Assembly: GCF_009601685.2 (NCBI RefSeq)
Contig: NZ_CP045701.2
Coordinates: 3,162,001-3,226,000, forward strand
DNA from: Pseudomonas brassicacearum
Lineage (GTDB): Bacteria; Pseudomonadota; Gammaproteobacteria; Pseudomonadales; Pseudomonadaceae
Reading direction: 5' to 3'
Length of the DNA: 64,000 bases
The notes beneath the pieces are model-generated. The model had not been told where the DNA came from and did not search any database. It worked only from the letters and a program-made list of their open reading frames with translations. The translations under genes were made by a program, and so were the position numbers. Of the stretch, positions 3,877-13,565 are shown one piece after another. Each line of letters opens with the position of its first letter. Within the stretch, counting starts at the first letter, position 1.

Positions 3877-3990
3877 TCCGAGCATTAGTGAGTTCAATAC
3901 TACCGATCGGAAGAGTGTGTTATCTACCCATTACAGCTTTTCTGGGTAGCCCCAGTGATGCACTCACTCGATCCATTGTGTGAGTCGGTC

Positions 3991-3998
3991 GGTCATTC
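3991..3998. repeat. 8-bp target duplication, left copy, outer IS66
   Basis: GGTCATTC occurs here directly before the left end of the outer IS66 element and again at 8937-8944 directly after its right end. Eight base pairs is the usual IS66 duplication length. Confidence 0.85.
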
Positions 3999-4033
3999 GT
4001 ATGCGATCCATAAACCCCACCTACCCAACAGTG

Positions 4034-4041
4034 GATTAACG
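4034..4041. repeat. 8-bp target duplication, left copy, inner IS66
   Basis: GATTAACG stands immediately before the GTAAG tip at 4042 and recurs at 6918-6925 immediately after the opposite tip. This sets the limits of the inner element at 4042-6917 rather than at the internal end copy at 4536. Confidence 0.9.
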
Positions 4042-4068
4042 GTAAGTGTCCGGCTAACACACCTTGCG
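4042..4068 (+). repeat. Terminal inverted repeat, left end of inner IS66
   Basis: This 27-base end matches the right end at 6891-6917 with only a few mismatches and shares its CACCTT core. It borders the target duplication GATTAACG. Confidence 0.85.
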
Positions 4069-4134
4069 TAGTCGAACGGACGCTAGCCCGGTATCCTTCA
4101 TCCCAATCACGGTTACCGACTCTGAGGGCGCATT

Positions 4135-4521
4135 TTGGCAATATCCATCTATTACACTGCTTGGCGAAAGGCCCCGCTCAGCTCGAACGAGGTAACCGTT
4201 ATTGAGGAGATTGTTCGTCGCTACTGTGTAGACGATCAAATCGAACGATTCTTCTCCCTCGGCTCTGGCCTAAATTGGGAGTCATTCGATTTCTCAACAA
4301 ACCTGGAGCCGAGTCGTTTTCTAAAGAAGGGCCTCGTGTTTTCGGGCGCCACTAAGCTCCCTGATAACCAAGAAGACGCATCATGGGTTGGCATACAACA
4401 TTGGTGTAAGTGCTTATCGGACATTCGTATCGCGGTGTCTGGTTGCGAATGGAATGTTGCGGTCGAAGACCATGAAATGCAGTGGGATGCGGTAGTCAAC
4501 TCGTATGACCCGACACGATAA
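4135..4521 (+). CDS. Passenger gene inside IS66, small soluble protein
   Basis: The predicted product is 128 residues from a TTG start, with a weak GAGGG six bases upstream and no in-frame ATG before residue 115. It is acidic and rich in tryptophan and aromatics (IYYTAWRKAPL at the start, then NWESF, WVGIQHWCK and EWNVAVEDHE). It has no signal peptide, membrane helix or transposase motif. The overall look recalls a widespread family of small unnamed bacterial proteins, some of which resemble immunity proteins; that is a recollection, not evidence. It faces tnpC convergently. Its place between two left-end copies within one pair of target duplications marks it as IS cargo. Confidence 0.6.
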   Translation: MAISIYYTAWRKAPLSSNEVTVIEEIVRRYCVDDQIERFFSLGSGLNWESFDFSTNLEPSRFLKKGLVFSGATKLPDNQEDASWVGIQHWCKCLSDIRIAVSGCEWNVAVEDHEMQWDAVVNSYDPTR

Positions 4522-4535
4522 GAAAGGGGTGTTCC

Positions 4536-4561
4536 GTAAGCGCACGCCAACTCACCTTGCG
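4536..4561 (+). repeat. Internal copy of the IS66 left end
   Basis: GTAAGCGCACGCCAACTCAC is a close, one-base-shorter relative of the outer ends at 4042 and 6917, lying 30 bases beyond the tnpC stop where a standard IS66 would end. The eight bases before it do not match those after 6917. Confidence 0.8.
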
Positions 4562-4565
4562 TAAT

Positions 4566-6101
4566 TCAGGCCGGCACCCACTGATGCGGTAGCAGTTGGC
4601 CGATCTCACTGGCCCGTTGTGTCGGCAGCCGCGTCAGCACATCTTTGAGATAGGCATACGGATCATGCCCATTCATGCGCGCCGACTGGATCAGGCTCAT
4701 GATCACCGCCGCCCGTTTGCCACTGCGCAGCGACCCGGCAAACAACCAGTTCGAGCGTCCGAGTGCCCATGGCCGTATCTGGTTCTCGACCTGGTTGTTG
4801 TCGATGGGCACAGCCCCATCGTCCAGGTAGCGCGTCAGCGCTACCCAGCGTTTCAGGCTGTAGTCGAGGGCTTTGGCCGTGGCTGATCCATTGGGTACCA
4901 GGTCGCGCTGGGCCAACATCCAGTCATGCAGTGTTTTGCTGATCGGTACCGCCATTTCCTGACGTATTCGCCAACGGTCTTCATTGCTCATGTCCCGAGC
5001 CTGGCGTTCAACCTCGTACAAACCGCCAATCGAGTGCAGCGCCTGTTCGGCCAACTGGCTTTTGTTCGCGACATGCAGGTCGAAGAACTTGCGGCGGGCA
5101 TGAGCCATGCAGCCGATCTCAGTGATGCCTTTCTCAAAACCGGCTTTGTAGCCAGCGAAGTCATCGCAGACCAGCTTGCCGTTCCAGTCGCCCAAAAAGT
5201 TGCGTGCGTGTTCGCCGGCACGGCTTGGACTGAAGTCGTAAACCACTGCGTTGAGCGTCGAAAACGGCGTCGTGCTGTAGGCCCAGACGTAGGCCCGGTG
5301 GGTTTTCTTCTCGCCTGGCGCGAGCATTTGTACCGGTGTTTCATCGGCGTGAATCACGCCCTGGTTTAGCACCGCTTCACGCAGTGCATCGACCAGTGGC
5401 TGGAGTCGCACACCGGTTTGTCCGACCCACTGGGCCAGGGTCGAGCGAGCAATTGCCAACCCGGCGCGGGCAAAGATTATCTCCTGCCGGTACAGCGGCA
5501 AGTGATCGGCAAATTTGGCCACCATCACGTGGGCCAGCAAGCCTGCAGTCGGGATACCTTTGTCGATAACCTGGGCCGGCACCGGCGCCTGGATCAGTGT
5601 TTCGCACTGACGACAGGCCCATTTGCCACGCACATGTTGCTCGACGGTAAACACGCCCGGTGTGTAATCCAGCCTCTCGCTGACGTCTTCACCGATGCGT
5701 TGAAGTTTGCAGCCACAGGCACACTGGGTGTTTTCGGGTTCGTGGCGAATCACCGTGCGCGGAAACTGCGGCGGCAATGGTGCACGCTTGGGAGATTGCC
5801 GTGGTTCGGCCGGTGGCGCAGCTGGGAGGAGCTGTTTTAGCTCGGCCTCAATTGCTTCAAGGTCTGTGTCGAGCAGGTCATCTAGCAAGCTGCCTTGCGC
5901 CGGGCTGATTTGCTCGCTGCGCTTGGCGAACTTGTGGCGTTTGAGAAGGGCGATTTCGTAAGTGAGCTGCTCGATGATGCTTCCATCGTTCTGAATCTTC
6001 TTGCTCATCACCTCGATCTGGGACTGCAACTGCAACGCTTGCGCCGCCAAAGCACGTAGCTGTTTCGGGGTCATCTGGTCGAGGTTGGGCGAAGACGTCA
6101 T
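4566..6101 (-). CDS. tnpC: IS66 family transposase TnpC (inner element)
   Basis: This is the DDE transposase of the inner IS66, 511 residues from the ATG at 6101; a TTG at 6140 would add 13. In order there is an N-terminal leucine-rich coiled coil (LRALAAQALQLQSQIEVM), a zinc-binding region with CACGCKL and CRQCE, and the DDE core. The acidic residues are visible in HADETPVQ, VCDDFAGYK and DNNQVENQIRPW. Length is normal for the family, so it is probably active. It is the last gene of the tnpA-tnpB-tnpC operon. Confidence 0.92.
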   Translation of the reverse strand: MTSSPNLDQMTPKQLRALAAQALQLQSQIEVMSKKIQNDGSIIEQLTYEIALLKRHKFAKRSEQISPAQGSLLDDLLDTDLEAIEAELKQLLPAAPPAEPRQSPKRAPLPPQFPRTVIRHEPENTQCACGCKLQRIGEDVSERLDYTPGVFTVEQHVRGKWACRQCETLIQAPVPAQVIDKGIPTAGLLAHVMVAKFADHLPLYRQEIIFARAGLAIARSTLAQWVGQTGVRLQPLVDALREAVLNQGVIHADETPVQMLAPGEKKTHRAYVWAYSTTPFSTLNAVVYDFSPSRAGEHARNFLGDWNGKLVCDDFAGYKAGFEKGITEIGCMAHARRKFFDLHVANKSQLAEQALHSIGGLYEVERQARDMSNEDRWRIRQEMAVPISKTLHDWMLAQRDLVPNGSATAKALDYSLKRWVALTRYLDDGAVPIDNNQVENQIRPWALGRSNWLFAGSLRSGKRAAVIMSLIQSARMNGHDPYAYLKDVLTRLPTQRASEIGQLLPHQWVPA

Positions 6102-6164
6102 GCCGTTGATTGTGCCAGAGCCGGCACGGGACGGCGACAAGTAGACCGGCCAAATGGCCGGCGT

Positions 6165-6500
6165 TTACAGCACAGTAATCGCACCGCCTGCGCCGACACG
6201 CTGCCAGGGCAGGCCCAGTACCAAGGCCTGAAGCTGTTCGCTGTCGAGTTCGACCTCAGCTCCATGGCGAACGCCCGGCCAGTGGAACTTGCCCTGATTC
6301 AGTCGCCGTGCTGCAAGCCAGATACCCACGCCATCATGCACCAGCACCTTCATCCGGTTGGCCCGGCGATTGGCGAAGAGGTAAGCGCAGTGCGGCTTCG
6401 CCGCACCGAACACCGCGATCACCCGGGCCAATGCTGTCTCCGTGCCGGCGCGCATATCCATCGGTTCGGTGGCCAGCCAGATCGCATCAATACGGATCAT
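6165..6500 (-). CDS. tnpB: IS66 accessory protein TnpB (inner element)
   Basis: The 111-residue protein has the typical IS66 Orf2 pattern: PMDMRAG near the start, then a FANRRANRMKVLVHDGVGIW block and a C-terminal region ending in the LDSEQLQALVLGLPW stretch. TnpB is needed for transposition of three-gene IS66 elements, though its biochemical role is not settled. Its start overlaps the tnpA stop by four bases (ATGA). Confidence 0.92.
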   Translation of the reverse strand: MIRIDAIWLATEPMDMRAGTETALARVIAVFGAAKPHCAYLFANRRANRMKVLVHDGVGIWLAARRLNQGKFHWPGVRHGAEVELDSEQLQALVLGLPWQRVGAGGAITVL

Positions 6501-6817
6501 TGAGCGACAGTCCGAATAAACTGCGCGCAGCCCTCAGGATCTGAGGTTGGCCACTTCACCGTGATCACTTGCCCGGCCATGGGTAACTCAATGATCACCA
6601 ACGTTTCCGCTGGCCGTTTAGGAGCAGCCTTCAGCGGGACAAAGGCTGGTAGCGAGTTTGGGGCGAGTTGGTCTCGATAGAGCGGCATCCATTTGCGGAT
6701 GACGTTGGCGTTGATGCCGTGACTGATGGCGACACTGGACACGGTTGCGCCAGGTTGCAGGCATTCCTGAACGACTTGGGCTTTGAATGGTTTCGGATAA
6801 GAGCTTCGTTGGCGCAT
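6497..6817 (-). CDS. tnpA: IS66 accessory protein TnpA (inner element)
   Basis: This 106-residue protein has a helix-turn-helix N-terminus (YPKPFKAQVVQECLQPGATV, then SSVAISHGINANVIRKW) like other IS66 and IS3 first-frame proteins, which bind element ends. It is the first gene of the transposase operon and starts about 100 bases inside the right inverted repeat. Confidence 0.9.
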   Translation of the reverse strand: MRQRSSYPKPFKAQVVQECLQPGATVSSVAISHGINANVIRKWMPLYRDQLAPNSLPAFVPLKAAPKRPAETLVIIELPMAGQVITVKWPTSDPEGCAQFIRTVAQ

Positions 6818-6890
6818 GGAAATCCTGGCGATAAGGGTGATCGCGTCCGCTTAAATAGACGCGGACACCATCGCCCTTAATGCTGGAGTT

Positions 6891-6917
6891 CGGAAGGTGA
6901 CTTGGCCGGACGCTTAC
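6891..6917 (-). repeat. Terminal inverted repeat, right end of inner IS66
   Basis: Read on the minus strand it begins GTAAGCGTCCGGCCAAGTCA and pairs with the end at 4042. The target duplication GATTAACG follows at 6918-6925. Confidence 0.88.
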
Positions 6918-6925
6918 GATTAACG
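6918..6925. repeat. 8-bp target duplication, right copy, inner IS66
   Basis: GATTAACG, identical to 4034-4041. It lies two bases outside the stop codon of the outer element's tnpC. Confidence 0.9.
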
Positions 6926-6927
6926 GT

Positions 6928-8472
6928 TTACCGTGGCATTTCTGGCGAGCAGTTCCACGGCAGCAAGGCTTCATAATCTTCAAGCGACGAAGCCTGAGGC
7001 AGCCGCTCCAGTACGTGGCGCAACCACGTATAGGGCTCTTGGCCGTTGACCTTGGCGGTCTCGACCAGGCTGTAGATCTTTGCGCTGGCAGTGGCGCCGT
7101 TGACGGTATCGCTGAACAGCCAGGCCTTGCGTCCAATGACAAACGGCTTGATCGCTCTTTCGGCCGGGTTGTTGTCGATGGGCAGATAACCCGCTTCGAC
7201 ATAGCGCTCCAGTCGGCTCCAGTTATTCGCCAGATAATGCACCGCCTTGCCTAATGCACTTTGCGGCGTCACCTGGGATTGGGTTTTATCCAGCCAGACT
7301 TTCAGCTGCCCCAAGATCGGCAGGCTCTTTTCCTGGCGAGCGATAAACCGCTGTTCATCACTGGCAACCTTAAGTTCACGCTCGACTCCATACAGTTTGT
7401 TAATCATCGTCAGCGCGATATCCGCACGTCCCGTCTTGCCCTTGGGTTGCACTTTTTGCGCGTCCACGAACTTACGTCGTGCATGGGCCATGCACGCCAA
7501 GCGCTCCACGCCCGGTTGCAACGCCAAGGCGTTATAGCCAGCGTAATCATCGGTCATGACATAGCCACGATAGCTTTCCAGCAAACGCAACGGCACCTCC
7601 TGCGCACGGCTGGACGTGTAATCGAATAGCACGACTTTTCGATCCGACGGACCACTGGCTTGCACCCACATCCAGGATTGACTGGTCGGGTCTCGATCCG
7701 GCTCTTTCAACACTTGGACGCGGGTTTCATCGCAATGGATCACCGGACTTTCCAGTAATCGGTCGCGCATCAAATTCAACAGTGGCTGAAAGTGCTCGCT
7801 GCACTGGATGATCCAGCGCGCGAGAGTCTGGCGCGGAATATCAATGCCATGTCGGCTTAGCACCGTTTCAAACCGGTGCAACGGCAAGCCATCAACATAT
7901 TTGGTGGTCAGCAGCATCGCCAACACGCTAGGGCTGGCCATGCTTTTTTCGATCAACTGGGCCGGTTTGTCGACGGTGACCGGTGCAGTTTCGCAGCCTC
8001 GGCAAGCGTAGATCTTGCGGATATGTTTGATGACGCGGATCTGCATCGGCACGATATCCAACTGCTCGCTGGTTTCCTCACCAATGGCATGTTTGCGGCA
8101 ACCACAGGCACAGGTCAGCTCGTGTTCGGGCAGTTCATGGATAACTTCGATACGTGGCAGCTCAGCCGACAACGGCTTGCGTTTGCCACGGCGAGGTGTC
8201 GGTGCAACGACTTCTTCATCAGCGTCGCCAACTAGCGGCATGGGTTCGCTTTCAGGCTCGTTGAACAAGGCCAATTGCGGCGTGTTGGGCTCAACAGTTT
8301 GCTCGGACTTGCGCCCAAATAGACGGTCGCGCAACAGCTTGATCTGTTCTTTCAGGTCGACAATATGGGTCTGATAAGCTTGCGCCGATTCTTCCTGGCG
8401 ACTGAGTGCCTCAAGCAGCAATTGCTTGAGCAAAACAGGATCATCAGGAAGGTCGTCGGGTAGAGAAATCAT
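6928..8472 (-). CDS. tnpC: IS66 family transposase TnpC (outer element)
   Basis: The 514-residue transposase is full length. It has an N-terminal coiled coil ([19 protein letters not shown]), a zinc region (CACGCRK and CRGCE) and a DDE core with [19 protein letters not shown] and [12 protein letters not shown]. It is clearly a different IS66 lineage from the inner TnpC. It is preceded by tnpB, 18 bases away on the same strand. The inner IS66 is inserted just after its stop codon without damaging it. Confidence 0.93.
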
Positions 8473-8490
8473 GGCCCGGATTATACCGAG

Positions 8491-8850
8491 TCACGCCACG
8501 TAGCGCGGCGTCAAAACTTGATGAGGACGGTTACGCCAGAGATCAAAACCGTCGAGCAGCCAGTTCAGCTCCTGGACGCTGAGGATAATCGCCTCGTCCG
8601 TGGCATCGGGCGACGTTTTGAAGCGCTCGGATTCTAAGCGCTTGAGCCAAAGACAGAAGCCGTTGCGCTCCCAGTACAAGATCTTCACGCGGTTGCGGGA
8701 CTTGTTGAGAAAGACGAAAAGTATTGGATCGAATACCGCCACTTTTATATCCAGTTCGACCAACGCGGCGAGGCCGTCGATAGATTTTCGAAAGTCCACC
8801 GGCTTGGGGTAGAGGTACACTTTTTCGACTTTGGCGTCGGGTCGCATCAT
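8491..8850 (-). CDS. tnpB: IS66 accessory protein TnpB (outer element)
   Basis: The 119-residue TnpB starts at the first of two ATG codons (8850), preceded by TCTGGAG at good distance; a longer reading to 8889 is less likely. The pattern YLYPKPVDFRKSIDGL, then FLNKSRNRVKILYWERNGFC is typical of the family. Only about 85 bases separate it from the right tip of the element, too little for a standard tnpA. Confidence 0.9.
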   Translation of the reverse strand: MMRPDAKVEKVYLYPKPVDFRKSIDGLAALVELDIKVAVFDPILFVFLNKSRNRVKILYWERNGFCLWLKRLESERFKTSPDATDEAIILSVQELNWLLDGFDLWRNRPHQVLTPRYVA

Positions 8851-8936
8851 GGCGGGGCTGGCTCCAGAAAGAGATCGGGAGCGAAGCATCGGGGATCAAA
8901 TGCGGGCTTGGAATGTGGGGGTCATGGATCACTTAC

Positions 8937-8944
8937 GGTCATTC
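8937..8944. repeat. 8-bp target duplication, right copy, outer IS66
   Basis: GGTCATTC, identical to 3991-3998, directly outside the right tip of the outer IS66. Confidence 0.85.
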
Positions 8945-9384: not shown

Positions 9385-11259
9385 TCAAAGCACGACAATC
9401 TCGTCTGCGTTCAGCCAGCCGGCTTCAATGACGCTTGCTTTGGCAATCTCTGGCTGGGAGCTGTAAATCACGATCGCCAAGCTTTCCTCAGCACGACTGC
9501 AGGTCACATAAAGAAGCCTGCGCGTGCGCGACAAGGAATCATCCTTGCCCGCCCGCTGATTCTTCACGTCGGTTGGCGAAGCAGGCGTAACGCCGAGCAG
9601 CTTCTCATAGCTAAACAGAAAACCGCCTGCTTCTTCATCGTTCAGGATGACCATCACACGCGGAAACTCTAGGCCTTTCACCCCCTGGTGGGTGCCGAAC
9701 GGTGAAAGCCCATTTGCGTAGCCAGCGAACGCCTCCATCTCCGAGTAAGAGCGTCCCAGGACGATTCGATAAGCATGAATCTCCAGCGCTTCGCGATCCG
9801 ATGTTTCCGGAGCATCGTCAGCCGTAGCGCCCAGAGCCATCGCTTCGACGAAGCGGGCAGGCAGCTCAAGCAGCCCAGTCATTTGAAGAACTTGAGCTAC
9901 TTCCCCAATCAACGGATCATTGTCCGTAAGCATCTCACAGAGCGACTGGGTCGCTTTTCCAACAGACTCCAGCACCTCCAGTTGGTTGGTGCCAGCCGAC
10001 TCCAAGTATTTGGGATCAAGCAAGGGAGAGCGCAGCCGCACCGCTTCCATGAGCGTGAAATCATCCGCTCGAGCCGCTTCTACTATTGGGGCTACCCCCT
10101 CAAAGAAAAGCTTGAGTATGGGTAGAGTTCCGTCCAGTAGGCCCGTGTTTAGGTGTTCAACTGCATACAACGGCGTGAATACACCTTCAAACCCCATACG
10201 CCGCCCAGCCATCTTGTGTTCCAGGATAAGCGTCTTGCGGCCTTGCATACCGGTTGCCCACTGAACATCGCCGGTGACGTCAGCCATTTGCCTAGCAATC
10301 TGCTCTTCCAGGCTGAAATCCTGACCCGGTACCTGCCGTGTGCAGAACATTCGTACTGTGCCTCTGGCAGCCCCCGGCTTAGGTATTTGCTGATGACCGT
10401 CAACGCTCGCACGGATCACATTAATTAAGTCGACAACTCGAGTTGGGCAGCGACGGTTCATGCGCTTTTCTGGCTTGGCCCAATCCGCAGGAATGGCATC
10501 ATCCAACCCAACTTTCCCGTCGTTGTAGATGCGTTGCATCGTGTCGCCGAGAAGCCCTAGGCAGAACCTTTCAGGGATTGCAGCTTGAGCTTGCAGAAAG
10601 GTATCCATGAGCGGGCCGTACGTATCCTGACTTTCATCGATCAAGAGCACCGGGTGCCGGTCGGCCATCACATCAAGCAAGGGTGGCTTCGGGATGAACG
10701 CCGCGGCCATCTGGATGACCTCGCTATGGTTCAAAGATTGCCTGCTTCGGTTGTCTCCCGTCGGGCTATAGGTGAAGTCGGTGATTTCATCTAGGCCCGC
10801 GAGGCGACGGGCTTTGCTATCCCGGCTCGCCCGATTAGCACGAGACGTCTTATTCTCTCCTTGCGCCCTACGGAGTTTGTCATCCAGTTCGTCGATGTCG
10901 GCGGCGAGCTTAACGCGCAACCACTCACGAATGTCATCGTTGAAGCCCTTGATCATCCTCCAGGAGAAAGCGTGGATCGTTGAGACTTCAACCAGAGGAT
11001 CGTGCTCGAGTCGGCGTTCGATCTCCTCGCAGGCCGCATTGGTATAGGTGATGATCGCGATCTGCCGGCCTTCAAATGTAAGACGCTGTTGCTCCCGTCC
11101 CTTGAGCGACTTCACTGCTTCTACGAGCGAGTGGGTCTTGCCAGAGCCGGCCCCTGCGTAAAGGAAGAAGCTGCGTGGCTGCTCTAGGTTTAGACATTCC
11201 TTGATAACCTCATCAGCAGTCGGCTTCACTTCATCAACAACCTCGGTAATGGCGCTCAT
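9385..11259 (-). CDS. UvrD/Rep-like helicase of an OLD class 2 (Gabija-like) pair
   Basis: This 624-residue superfamily 1 helicase has Walker A GAGSGKT at residues 36-42, motif Ia-like IITYTNAACEEIERRL near 70, motif II LLIDESQDT near 206, and a late motif VI YVTCSRAEESLAIVIY near residue 600. Its start overlaps the OLD gene's stop by four bases (ATGA). A UvrD/PcrA/Rep-like helicase directly after an OLD nuclease is the defining arrangement of class 2 OLD systems and of Gabija (GajB), where the helicase acts with the nuclease against phage DNA. It is longer than the roughly 500-residue GajB of Bacillus. A DNA-repair helicase role is less likely given the coupling. Confidence 0.85.
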   Translation of the reverse strand: MSAITEVVDEVKPTADEVIKECLNLEQPRSFFLYAGAGSGKTHSLVEAVKSLKGREQQRLTFEGRQIAIITYTNAACEEIERRLEHDPLVEVSTIHAFSWRMIKGFNDDIREWLRVKLAADIDELDDKLRRAQGENKTSRANRASRDSKARRLAGLDEITDFTYSPTGDNRSRQSLNHSEVIQMAAAFIPKPPLLDVMADRHPVLLIDESQDTYGPLMDTFLQAQAAIPERFCLGLLGDTMQRIYNDGKVGLDDAIPADWAKPEKRMNRRCPTRVVDLINVIRASVDGHQQIPKPGAARGTVRMFCTRQVPGQDFSLEEQIARQMADVTGDVQWATGMQGRKTLILEHKMAGRRMGFEGVFTPLYAVEHLNTGLLDGTLPILKLFFEGVAPIVEAARADDFTLMEAVRLRSPLLDPKYLESAGTNQLEVLESVGKATQSLCEMLTDNDPLIGEVAQVLQMTGLLELPARFVEAMALGATADDAPETSDREALEIHAYRIVLGRSYSEMEAFAGYANGLSPFGTHQGVKGLEFPRVMVILNDEEAGGFLFSYEKLLGVTPASPTDVKNQRAGKDDSLSRTRRLLYVTCSRAEESLAIVIYSSQPEIAKASVIEAGWLNADEIVVL

Positions 11260-13565
11260 TGTCCAGTCACCTCGATGCTGGCCGTTGGAATTATCAGAAG
11301 TTCCTTACTCTTTTTTTTGAGCTTGGTCTCTAACCAGGTGAGCCCTTCGCGGATGTACTCGGGAATCGCCACCTTGGCAAAGTTGGGATCCCCCAGTATC
11401 TGTAAAGCGAACTCCGCCTTGTCTCCATTCCTGAGAGCGTCGAACAACGCCTGCCCCAGATCGTCCGCGGTTTCCGACTCACGCAGCGCGTTGGAAACTG
11501 CCTTGGTCAAACCCCGGCCTTGCTTAGTCGCAAAATGCTTCACGTTGCTCAGTACCAGGCTGTCCTCGAAGGTATTGGGCAGGGCCTCTACATCAACTTC
11601 AGTCTTAGGAAGACGGATGGTGATCGGCGTCTGATACGCCACTCTGATAGCAAACAAATCATCGATCTGAACAGCTTTTTGCTCACTATCCAGATCCAGC
11701 AGAGTGTCCACGTCATGACCCAGTTGTCGGGCTGCCACCCAGTGCCGGAGGGTAGGGTTATTGGTTGACTGATCTGCCTGTCGCCGAACCGGTACCGCTG
11801 ATTTCTTGTGGCCAGCGTCCAGATCAGTTATCACCAAGGTCACGATGCCCAATGCGTCTACCAGCGGCCGGAGTCGGTGAGCGTGACTGCCCCCGATATC
11901 CAAGATAGTGATGTAGCATCGATCCAGGAAGGGGAAGTGGTTGCGCAGGAAGTGAGGCAGCATCATTCGCTCTGCAGCACCTTCTACCAGAATGACCGCG
12001 TCGGCGAAGAAGAGATCGGCATGTTGCGCCCTGAGGTAACGGGTCACGAACTCCTTCGTTTGCTTGTGAGGGTTTTTCTGTCCGAAAACAGTGCTTAGGT
12101 TGGAGACGGTGGACACTGGAATAGGTACGTCGGCCATACCCGCGGGCAGCCTACGGAAATACCGAAGATTGGCGTACTCCGTCTCATGCGCGACGTGGCT
12201 CGAATGAGAGCTGACGATCAGTTGGGTTTTGAGCTTCGGATATTTCTTAAGCAGCGGGTCATTACACAGGACGTGATATGCATGCTTGATGAAGGCCTGC
12301 TGCACCTGGACGTGCAGGTGAGCCTCAGGCTCCTCGATCAGCACTAGGTGGATTGGCTCGACACCAGTGTCACACTGCTCCTCCGCGTTCTTGTACTTTC
12401 TCAGCCATTCATCTCGAAACGCCATTAACTGGAAAATCATTGAGATCAGGTTTTGGTAACCCAAACCGTTGGATGTCTCGGGCAAGCGCATGGGAGGGGC
12501 GCCGGGCGCGCCTGCGGCTGAGTCCAGCTCGAATAATACTGCTGCTTCGTGGTTCATCCCGTCTGTAGGAGACAGCCGAGTTTCTACCCTGATAGCAGGG
12601 TCAGAATTGTTGGGGTATCCAAGGCCTGCGACTTCTTCGAGGGCAGGGGCGAAGCTGGAGGTGAGTCGGGAATCGAATGCAGATTGGGCAGCCTGGATGG
12701 CTGTCAGCGCCTCCAGGTCCGAGATGTCTGGACTGTCACCCGGATCCAGATGCCGGTTGTAGTAAGCGCGCAATTGCTCCGTCAACTTTTTCCCCGAACC
12801 ACCTCTGCCTTCGGTGACGGATTCTTCCGCGCTGTCTCCAAAGCCGCGTTGGGCGTTGATTTCGTGAACGCGGATCAGATCGGTCAGGGGGTTGCTTTCC
12901 AGCGGAATAGCGGTCGCGGACAGTCCTTGAAGTTTGGCGTGACGAGTCTTGGGATCTGGTGCGCTGAGTTGCGCAGGGTCGAGACGGTACCAGCGAATCG
13001 CGAACATCGTTCCCAGGCGCCGGTTGAGGTAATCGTGCAAACTTTGGGGCCACAGTGGCAGGGTGAGCGGAGTCTTTCCCACCTCGGTCTGTTTCTCAAT
13101 TTCCTCTAGCAGCAGCTTCACGCGCTTCCGCTCCTTCCGGTAATCAGTAAAGAGCTTGGTCATGTCCTTTGGCTCGAGTCGGAAGCGCATGCCAACGTGG
13201 CCGCCTTTCCAGGCAAAGTTGGGAATCAGATCTCTGATGTGGTGCAGTTCGCCTTGTGAGGCTTCCACCCACAAATCCAGGGTAGGTAACCAGTGCGCCC
13301 ACTCGTTCGCCGCAGGGGCTTCGAGACTTTCATCAGCAGCTTCCCAATCGACGCCAATGGCATCAATAGTTCTGAGATGCGAGAGTGTCATATCTTGGAG
13401 CCGGAACGCGGTCGCTTTAGAAAGCAGGAACTTGCGTAGCGCCAACATCGCGGAGGACTTACCGCTGTTGTTTGCTCCGACCAGAAGGGTAGTGGTGTTG
13501 GCCAGGTCGATTCGAACTGACAGGAGCTTACGAAAGTTCGCGATCTCCAGGTACTGGATTTGCAT
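11256..13565 (-). CDS. OLD-family ATPase with TOPRIM nuclease domain (GajA-like)
   Basis: The 769-residue protein starts with ATG after AAGGAAGAGG. The N-terminal ABC-type ATPase has Walker A GANNSGKSS at residues 30-38, and the Walker B/signature region LVLIEEPEAHLH at about 408-420 is followed by a SSHSSHV switch. A C-terminal TOPRIM domain follows, with the catalytic glutamate in ILVEGAAERMM near 525 and an acidic pair in VITDLDAGH near 581. This is the layout of OLD nucleases and GajA, which cut DNA and are held off by nucleotides in normal cells. It is longer than typical GajA, mainly between the two ATPase halves. The pair is transcribed away from the KAP gene. Confidence 0.87.
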   Translation of the reverse strand: MQIQYLEIANFRKLLSVRIDLANTTTLLVGANNSGKSSAMLALRKFLLSKATAFRLQDMTLSHLRTIDAIGVDWEAADESLEAPAANEWAHWLPTLDLWVEASQGELHHIRDLIPNFAWKGGHVGMRFRLEPKDMTKLFTDYRKERKRVKLLLEEIEKQTEVGKTPLTLPLWPQSLHDYLNRRLGTMFAIRWYRLDPAQLSAPDPKTRHAKLQGLSATAIPLESNPLTDLIRVHEINAQRGFGDSAEESVTEGRGGSGKKLTEQLRAYYNRHLDPGDSPDISDLEALTAIQAAQSAFDSRLTSSFAPALEEVAGLGYPNNSDPAIRVETRLSPTDGMNHEAAVLFELDSAAGAPGAPPMRLPETSNGLGYQNLISMIFQLMAFRDEWLRKYKNAEEQCDTGVEPIHLVLIEEPEAHLHVQVQQAFIKHAYHVLCNDPLLKKYPKLKTQLIVSSHSSHVAHETEYANLRYFRRLPAGMADVPIPVSTVSNLSTVFGQKNPHKQTKEFVTRYLRAQHADLFFADAVILVEGAAERMMLPHFLRNHFPFLDRCYITILDIGGSHAHRLRPLVDALGIVTLVITDLDAGHKKSAVPVRRQADQSTNNPTLRHWVAARQLGHDVDTLLDLDSEQKAVQIDDLFAIRVAYQTPITIRLPKTEVDVEALPNTFEDSLVLSNVKHFATKQGRGLTKAVSNALRESETADDLGQALFDALRNGDKAEFALQILGDPNFAKVAIPEYIREGLTWLETKLKKKSKELLIIPTASIEVTGQ

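Follow-up and report, generated by a model that had tools for sequence, protein, structure and literature searches.

A 64,000-nucleotide stretch of Pseudomonas brassicacearum DNA (contig NZ_CP045701.2, positions 3,162,001 to 3,226,000; hereafter the window) contains one mobile unit of 2,876 bp, at window positions 4042-6917, which its sequence marks very probably as a passenger-carrying insertion sequence (IS) of the IS66 family, or tIS66. In this unit, the outer left end and the right end appear to be the ends in use, and a 128-codon passenger gene would be carried along at each move. It is common to treat IS66 elements as bearers of their own genes only. The tIS66 class is known and the unit is an added member of it; the part of interest is the mosaic of cargo and IS66 core that is seen among its relatives.

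Movement as one unit

The unit is flanked by an 8-bp target-site duplication, GATTAACG, at 4034-4041 and 6918-6925. It has been confirmed that GATTAACG lies immediately outside the outer ends and abuts these only, the inner left end at 4536-4563 not being flanked by it, as the first-pass annotation had stated in placing the duplication around 4042-6917 and not around 4536-6917. A second copy in the same genome (G000:C1:2684159-2687034) is identical across 2,876 bp and is flanked on both sides by a duplication of its own, ATTCATTT. A scan of genome_contigs for the passenger gene gave 15 loci, three of which (L013, L014 and L017, diverged and in other Pseudomonas) hold the unit between the same outer ends with perfect 8-bp duplications (ATCGAACC, GGTAATCC and CCAGAACA, respectively). 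With the window and the second genomic copy, the loci number five, each beside a perfect duplication of its own. The annotation's proposal that cargo and IS move together is supported, and the support is of the kind that it had named, the same unit with its passenger at other sites beside fresh 8-bp duplications. It had also reasoned that the gene would not be cargo if every other copy ended at 4536 and the gene stood at this locus without the IS; none of the five loci ends at 4536, the relatives that do end there are without cargo, and the empty sites in the genome are without the gene.

These empty sites lie in another element. The joined flanks of the unit match an uninterrupted IS684-like IS66 (81% to a named plasmid copy), and three uninterrupted IS684-like copies in the same genome, 99.9-100% identical, have a single GATTAACG at the insertion place; the 4042-6917 unit is therefore nested in another IS66. 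This host element (3999-8936) has its own duplication, GGTCATTC, at 3991-3998 and 8937-8944, and contains tnpC at 6928-8472 (by Pfam) and a tnpB-like open reading frame at 8491-8889, the names IS684 and tnpB being taken from the annotation of a plasmid relative. It is like the unit in family, orientation and 8-bp duplication, but belongs to another subgroup and hosts the insertion, of which it is not a part. The insertion place is the gap between the host's left end and tnpC, and the unit carries its own passenger in the equivalent gap. A further occurrence of GATTAACG, apparent at first beside the plasmid IS66 element H11, was absent on follow-up, where TATTATCG was found.

The passenger gene is present in 8 of the 398 genomes of the genus, that of the window included; the remaining 12 of the 15 loci are without an intact unit, and the copy in G294 is partial and contains a TGA. 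Several observations weigh against the reading of the unit as a mobile whole. In G414 the passenger has one in-frame TAG and the right end of the element was not aligned (L036), tnpC of L017 is interrupted by a stop and by gaps, a deletion in L014 has removed tnpA and most of tnpB, and L035, with a core 99% like that of the window, is missing its left part; mobility itself is deduced from the comparison of sequences. In addition, relatives of the passenger occur without an adjoining IS66 core, with degenerate left ends in L015 and L019 and with no left end in L016 and L018, so that the gene is independent of the IS.

That the passenger is a host gene, with an ordinary IS66 that inserted beside it at 4536 and a coincidental duplication at 4034, has next to no probability: the gene does occur without an adjoining core in L016, L018 and Pectobacterium, but the duplications at the outer ends of five loci and the gene-free empty sites rule it out as a host gene at the window site, and a chance duplication at the outer ends is ruled out by the second copy, the three further duplicated loci and the empty sites. 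A composite transposon, which also carries a gene between IS-type ends, was rejected as well, since in the unit a lone additional left end and one IS core stand in place of two flanking IS copies, with no second such core at the locus.

Two of the loci without a core deserve mention in their own right. In L015 (9908-11216), a passenger relative with a degenerate outer left end is followed about 0.8 kb downstream by a right-end-like stretch, and this may be a core-less remnant. At the start of a P. poae contig (L019:118-720), the passenger is followed by inner-end-like and then right-end-like sequence (by eye), as if the core had been deleted.

The order of parts within the unit is outer left end, passenger gene (forward strand), inner left end, tnpC, tnpB and tnpA (reverse strand) and right end. 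The outer left terminal inverted repeat (4042-4069), the end in use, begins GTAAGTGTCCGGCTAACACACC at 4042 and is of the IS66 type (GTAAGTGTCCGGCTAACACACCTTGCGTA...), and the same outer end stands beside the different duplications of L013, L014 and L017; the right terminal inverted repeat (6890-6917) ends ...GGCCGGACGCTTAC at 6917. The outer and inner left ends have in common an 18-nt stretch (4053-4070 vs 4546-4563, 89%). An IS66 DDE transposase is encoded by tnpC (4566-6140; PF03050 4.8e-106, NF033517), followed by tnpB (6165-6500; PF05717, NF033819) and tnpA (6497-6817; PF01527, NF047595), so that TnpA, TnpB and a DDE TnpC are all found by Pfam and NCBIfam. The unit also has terminal inverted repeats of the GTAAGCG type and a target duplication of 8 bp, as is general in the IS66 family.

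The tIS66 class is already in print with ISPa75, which carries fosZ (PMC12888890). In that paper the class is defined by a gene without a role in transposition that lies inside the terminal repeats and moves along with the IS, as found here, and 7 of the 25 Pseudomonas IS66 entries of ISfinder are given as carrying passengers (PMC12888890). According to the same paper, the left side of ISPa75-fosZ is 91-93% like ISPpu14 and ISPsko1, and capture is proposed to have occurred via IS66 ends related to two different elements. ISPa75-fosZ is like the unit in encoding TnpA, TnpB and a DDE transposase, with a single passenger placed downstream of the last of these; as there described, it differs in its fosfomycin resistance cargo and its length of 2,996 bp, and the window unit differs from it in its still visible inner left end and its identical second copy in the same genome. 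Another paper discusses passengers of Tn3-family transposons (PMC7371123), and no other paper on IS66 cargo was among the matches listed, judged by title and abstract start.

The inner left end and the possible exchange of cargo between cores

The IS66 left end that the annotation had noted at 4536, beside tnpC, is recognisable, with a score of 15 against a 24-nt left inverted repeat and a 95th percentile of 8 in shuffled sequence. Eight cargo-free relatives (L038, L042, L044, L055, L058, L071, L090 and L101) have their duplication-flanked left end no more than six bases away from the 4536-equivalent, and the core of five of these (L038, L042, L044, L055 and L058) is about 80-90% like that of the window. 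Since cargo-free relatives end at this place, the inner end (4536-4563) is probably the IS66 left end of the ancestor and has become vestigial. The cargo-free elements ISPpu14 and ISPsko1 have the same type of end, and from 4536 to the right end the unit is 89.9% identical to plasmid copies that bear the annotation ISPpu14 family; these elements differ in being without a passenger and in having their left end at the 4536-equivalent. Among other cargo-bearing elements, the inner end scores clearly above background in L059 (same cargo; 12), L081 (14), L083 (14) and L094 (12) and at most one above background in the rest, with indels in L013 and L014 and divergence in L017.

In the proposed mechanism, the transposition proteins would work on the right end together with the outer left end, carrying the 128-aa gene at every move, and the inner end at 4536 would be a relic, once the left end of an ancestor without cargo. 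In the likeliest course of events, a module consisting of an IS66-type left end and the gene became the neighbour of an IS66 core, and the distal end would have been used thereafter. The annotation had proposed capture by means of a second, related end outside the element, and this stands as far as the outer end is in use and the inner end a relic; the route by which the outer end was acquired, the order of the capture events and the present-day activity of the proteins are what we infer.

Extending this explanation, and not opposed to it, is the somewhat favoured reading that the outer left end and the gene form an exchangeable module, combined repeatedly with different IS66 cores. Between the window, L013, L014 and L017 the outer left end hardly differs, so that end and gene were inherited together. 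In comparisons of elements with the same cargo, the cargo can be closer than the core: 91.6% vs 80.0% for the window (L034) and L059, 95.6% vs 89.7% for the window and L013, and 92.1% vs 76.9% for L065 and L103, which share a 4.1-kb cargo (MFS-like pump, TetR-like regulator and hydrolase, by eye), with two further comparisons giving 96.2 vs 91.2 and 99.2 vs 94.0. Synonymous divergence (dS) between the window and L013 is 0.10 for the passenger and well above this for tnpC (0.39), tnpB (0.64) and tnpA (0.53); between the window and L017 it is 0.175 for the passenger, with 0.94, 1.29 and 1.51 for the same three genes, although a slower synonymous rate in the passenger would mimic part of this gap. 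Identity between L013 and the window broadly drops with distance from the cargo, the last 100 bp excepted.

A quick tree of cores points in the same direction. Three passenger-bearing cores were entered (window, L013 and L059, with L014 left out), and they fall separately, each nearest to an element with other or no cargo. In the approximately unbiased (AU) test on this tree, a single clade was rejected for the three passenger-gene cores (p = 6e-18) and for the cores with the 4.1-kb MFS cargo (p 1.7e-5), p-values that serve as a guide only, since the AU group was selected with the nearest-core table already in view and recombination is at odds with the assumption of one tree. Counting against exchange, a single clade for the GNATa cores was not rejected (p 0.158), and there is no gap between cargo and core in the GNATc copies or in near-identical MCP, AAA33 and GFA pairs. 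Two routes of exchange would fit: recombination, inside tnpC or next to it, and the insertion of a core alongside the module with later use of the end that the module brings.

The broader form of this reading, to which an even chance may be given, is that in this Pseudomonas IS66 clade an outer left end with its cargo acts as a plug-in module that repeatedly joins different cores, the elements having in common a two-part platform for gene transport with a general slot between left end and tnpC, as opposed to one-off captures. If modules exchange cores in this way, many related transposases could spread a gene that had been caught once, and the travel of passengers in Pseudomonas would be easier to explain. 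Core exchange is not described in the passages and abstract starts of the literature mentioned above, though it may already be in print elsewhere.

A cargo slot in related elements

How common cargo is in this slot was surveyed in relatives of the core, for which a match was found in 309 of the 398 genomes. Sixty loci were examined, taken from the best-scoring and thus not a random sample; they consist of 30 from the core search and 40 with longer flank, the latter replacing 10 of the 30. Three without a right end, 16 without a left duplication partner and the weak candidates L066 and L099 were dropped, leaving 39, and L092, which is without a right flank, was kept for the end, core and tree comparisons, leaving 38 that are checkable. 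Cargo of 467-4,667 bp lies between the outer left end and tnpC in 30 of these 38 duplication-flanked relatives, a fraction that is not a population frequency, as the survey favours full-length, high-scoring copies, counts repeat copies of one cargo separately and would miss cargo above about 6 kb. All 30 have duplications matching at 8 of 8 positions, and the 30 duplications are different; the eight cargo-free elements have exact duplications in seven cases and one mismatch in L090. The annotation had stated that IS66 members usually carry only tnpA, tnpB and tnpC; in this clade cargo is not unusual, being borne by most checkable copies, and appears shareable between clearly different cores. 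The gap between left end and tnpC offers a testable capture slot, which in the window holds an IS66 nested in an IS66.

About 20 kinds of cargo are present, a count that rests on labels given by eye, and a Pfam match was obtained for 16 of the 18 cargo proteins tested. These comprise three GNAT acetyltransferases, a nucleotidyltransferase, NUDIX, SnoaL-like, deaminase, AAA_33 and GFA proteins, a partial carbamoyltransferase domain, HxlR, NmrA, Darcynin, an MmyB-like regulator, an EamA transporter and an IS256-type transposase. Named by eye are a chemoreceptor, the MFS pump with TetR and hydrolase, a sensor kinase with response regulators, and a 4.7-kb set.

On a plasmid (pNY11382-IMP, L107), an IS66 element has a GNAT gene annotated beside tnpC. 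In L091, an element of the GNATc type, the slot holds an IS256/Mutator-type transposase gene, and only about 250 bp are common with the usual cargo.

The passenger gene and its protein

The passenger gene (4135-4521, forward strand; 128 aa) has a TTG start with GAGGG six bases upstream, and a scan of 3880-4700 for promoters and terminators found neither (expectation from shuffled sequence, 0.5 and 0.6). As the annotation had it, the gene is without transposase features: no Pfam or NCBIfam match was found at E 0.1. At the same threshold there was no match to PADLOC families (anti-phage defence), to PHROGs, or to SUKH and the other immunity families held in Pfam; one Pectobacterium relative gave a PHROGs helicase row at 0.07. 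The structure prediction that had been suggested for the 128-residue protein yielded a ferredoxin-like alpha/beta model by AlphaFold2 (predicted local distance difference test, pLDDT, 86, with the five models ranging from 69 to 86; predicted template modelling score, pTM, 0.82), whose structural neighbours, considered with dimeric ferredoxin-like and stress-barrel proteins in mind, are generic, and Foldseek gave no match at E 0.001 or better (best 4e-3), from which absence of a fold family is not claimed. A PDB profile search gave one row, at E 0.92.

Homologues of the passenger number 33 proteins, including those of Pseudomonas, Pectobacterium, Samsonia and Vibrio. Two Variovorax plasmid records encode relatives of 45% identity, and the one inspected is without annotated features nearby; in viral_contigs, one stretch was reported as encoding a relative, with no locus returned. 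Among Pseudomonas copies, the ratio of nonsynonymous to synonymous divergence (dN/dS) is 0.10-0.34 where computable and the reading frame is conserved; this ratio indicates purifying selection on the passenger.

With low confidence, the passenger is taken to be a small conserved accessory protein, an enzyme or binder being likelier than an immunity factor. That it serves general metabolism or the stress response, as a small enzyme or a small protein that binds a ligand, is a plausible reading that falls somewhat short of even odds. The annotation had raised the idea of an immunity or toxin-related factor, and an immunity role, protecting the cell from a toxin that rival bacteria deliver, appears unlikely. 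SUKH proteins are often immunity proteins, and some neighbours of passenger relatives are small proteins that hint weakly in this direction, namely two SUKH/SMI1_KNR4-family proteins in L006 (same place as L016), DUF7079 in L019 and DUF596 in the Pectobacterium locus L022. Against it, inspection of the listed neighbours by eye (first 60 residues, mostly without database search) revealed no toxin gene, the passenger is without a match in the family collections named above, a similar neighbourhood is found at 6 of 6 Pectobacterium loci (by eye), and cargo across the slot mostly resembles enzymes, regulators and transporters.

Directly beyond the nested IS66 elements, the window contains a Gabija-type pair at 9385-13565 (PADLOC GajB 1.6e-266; GajA E 0, 1108 bits).
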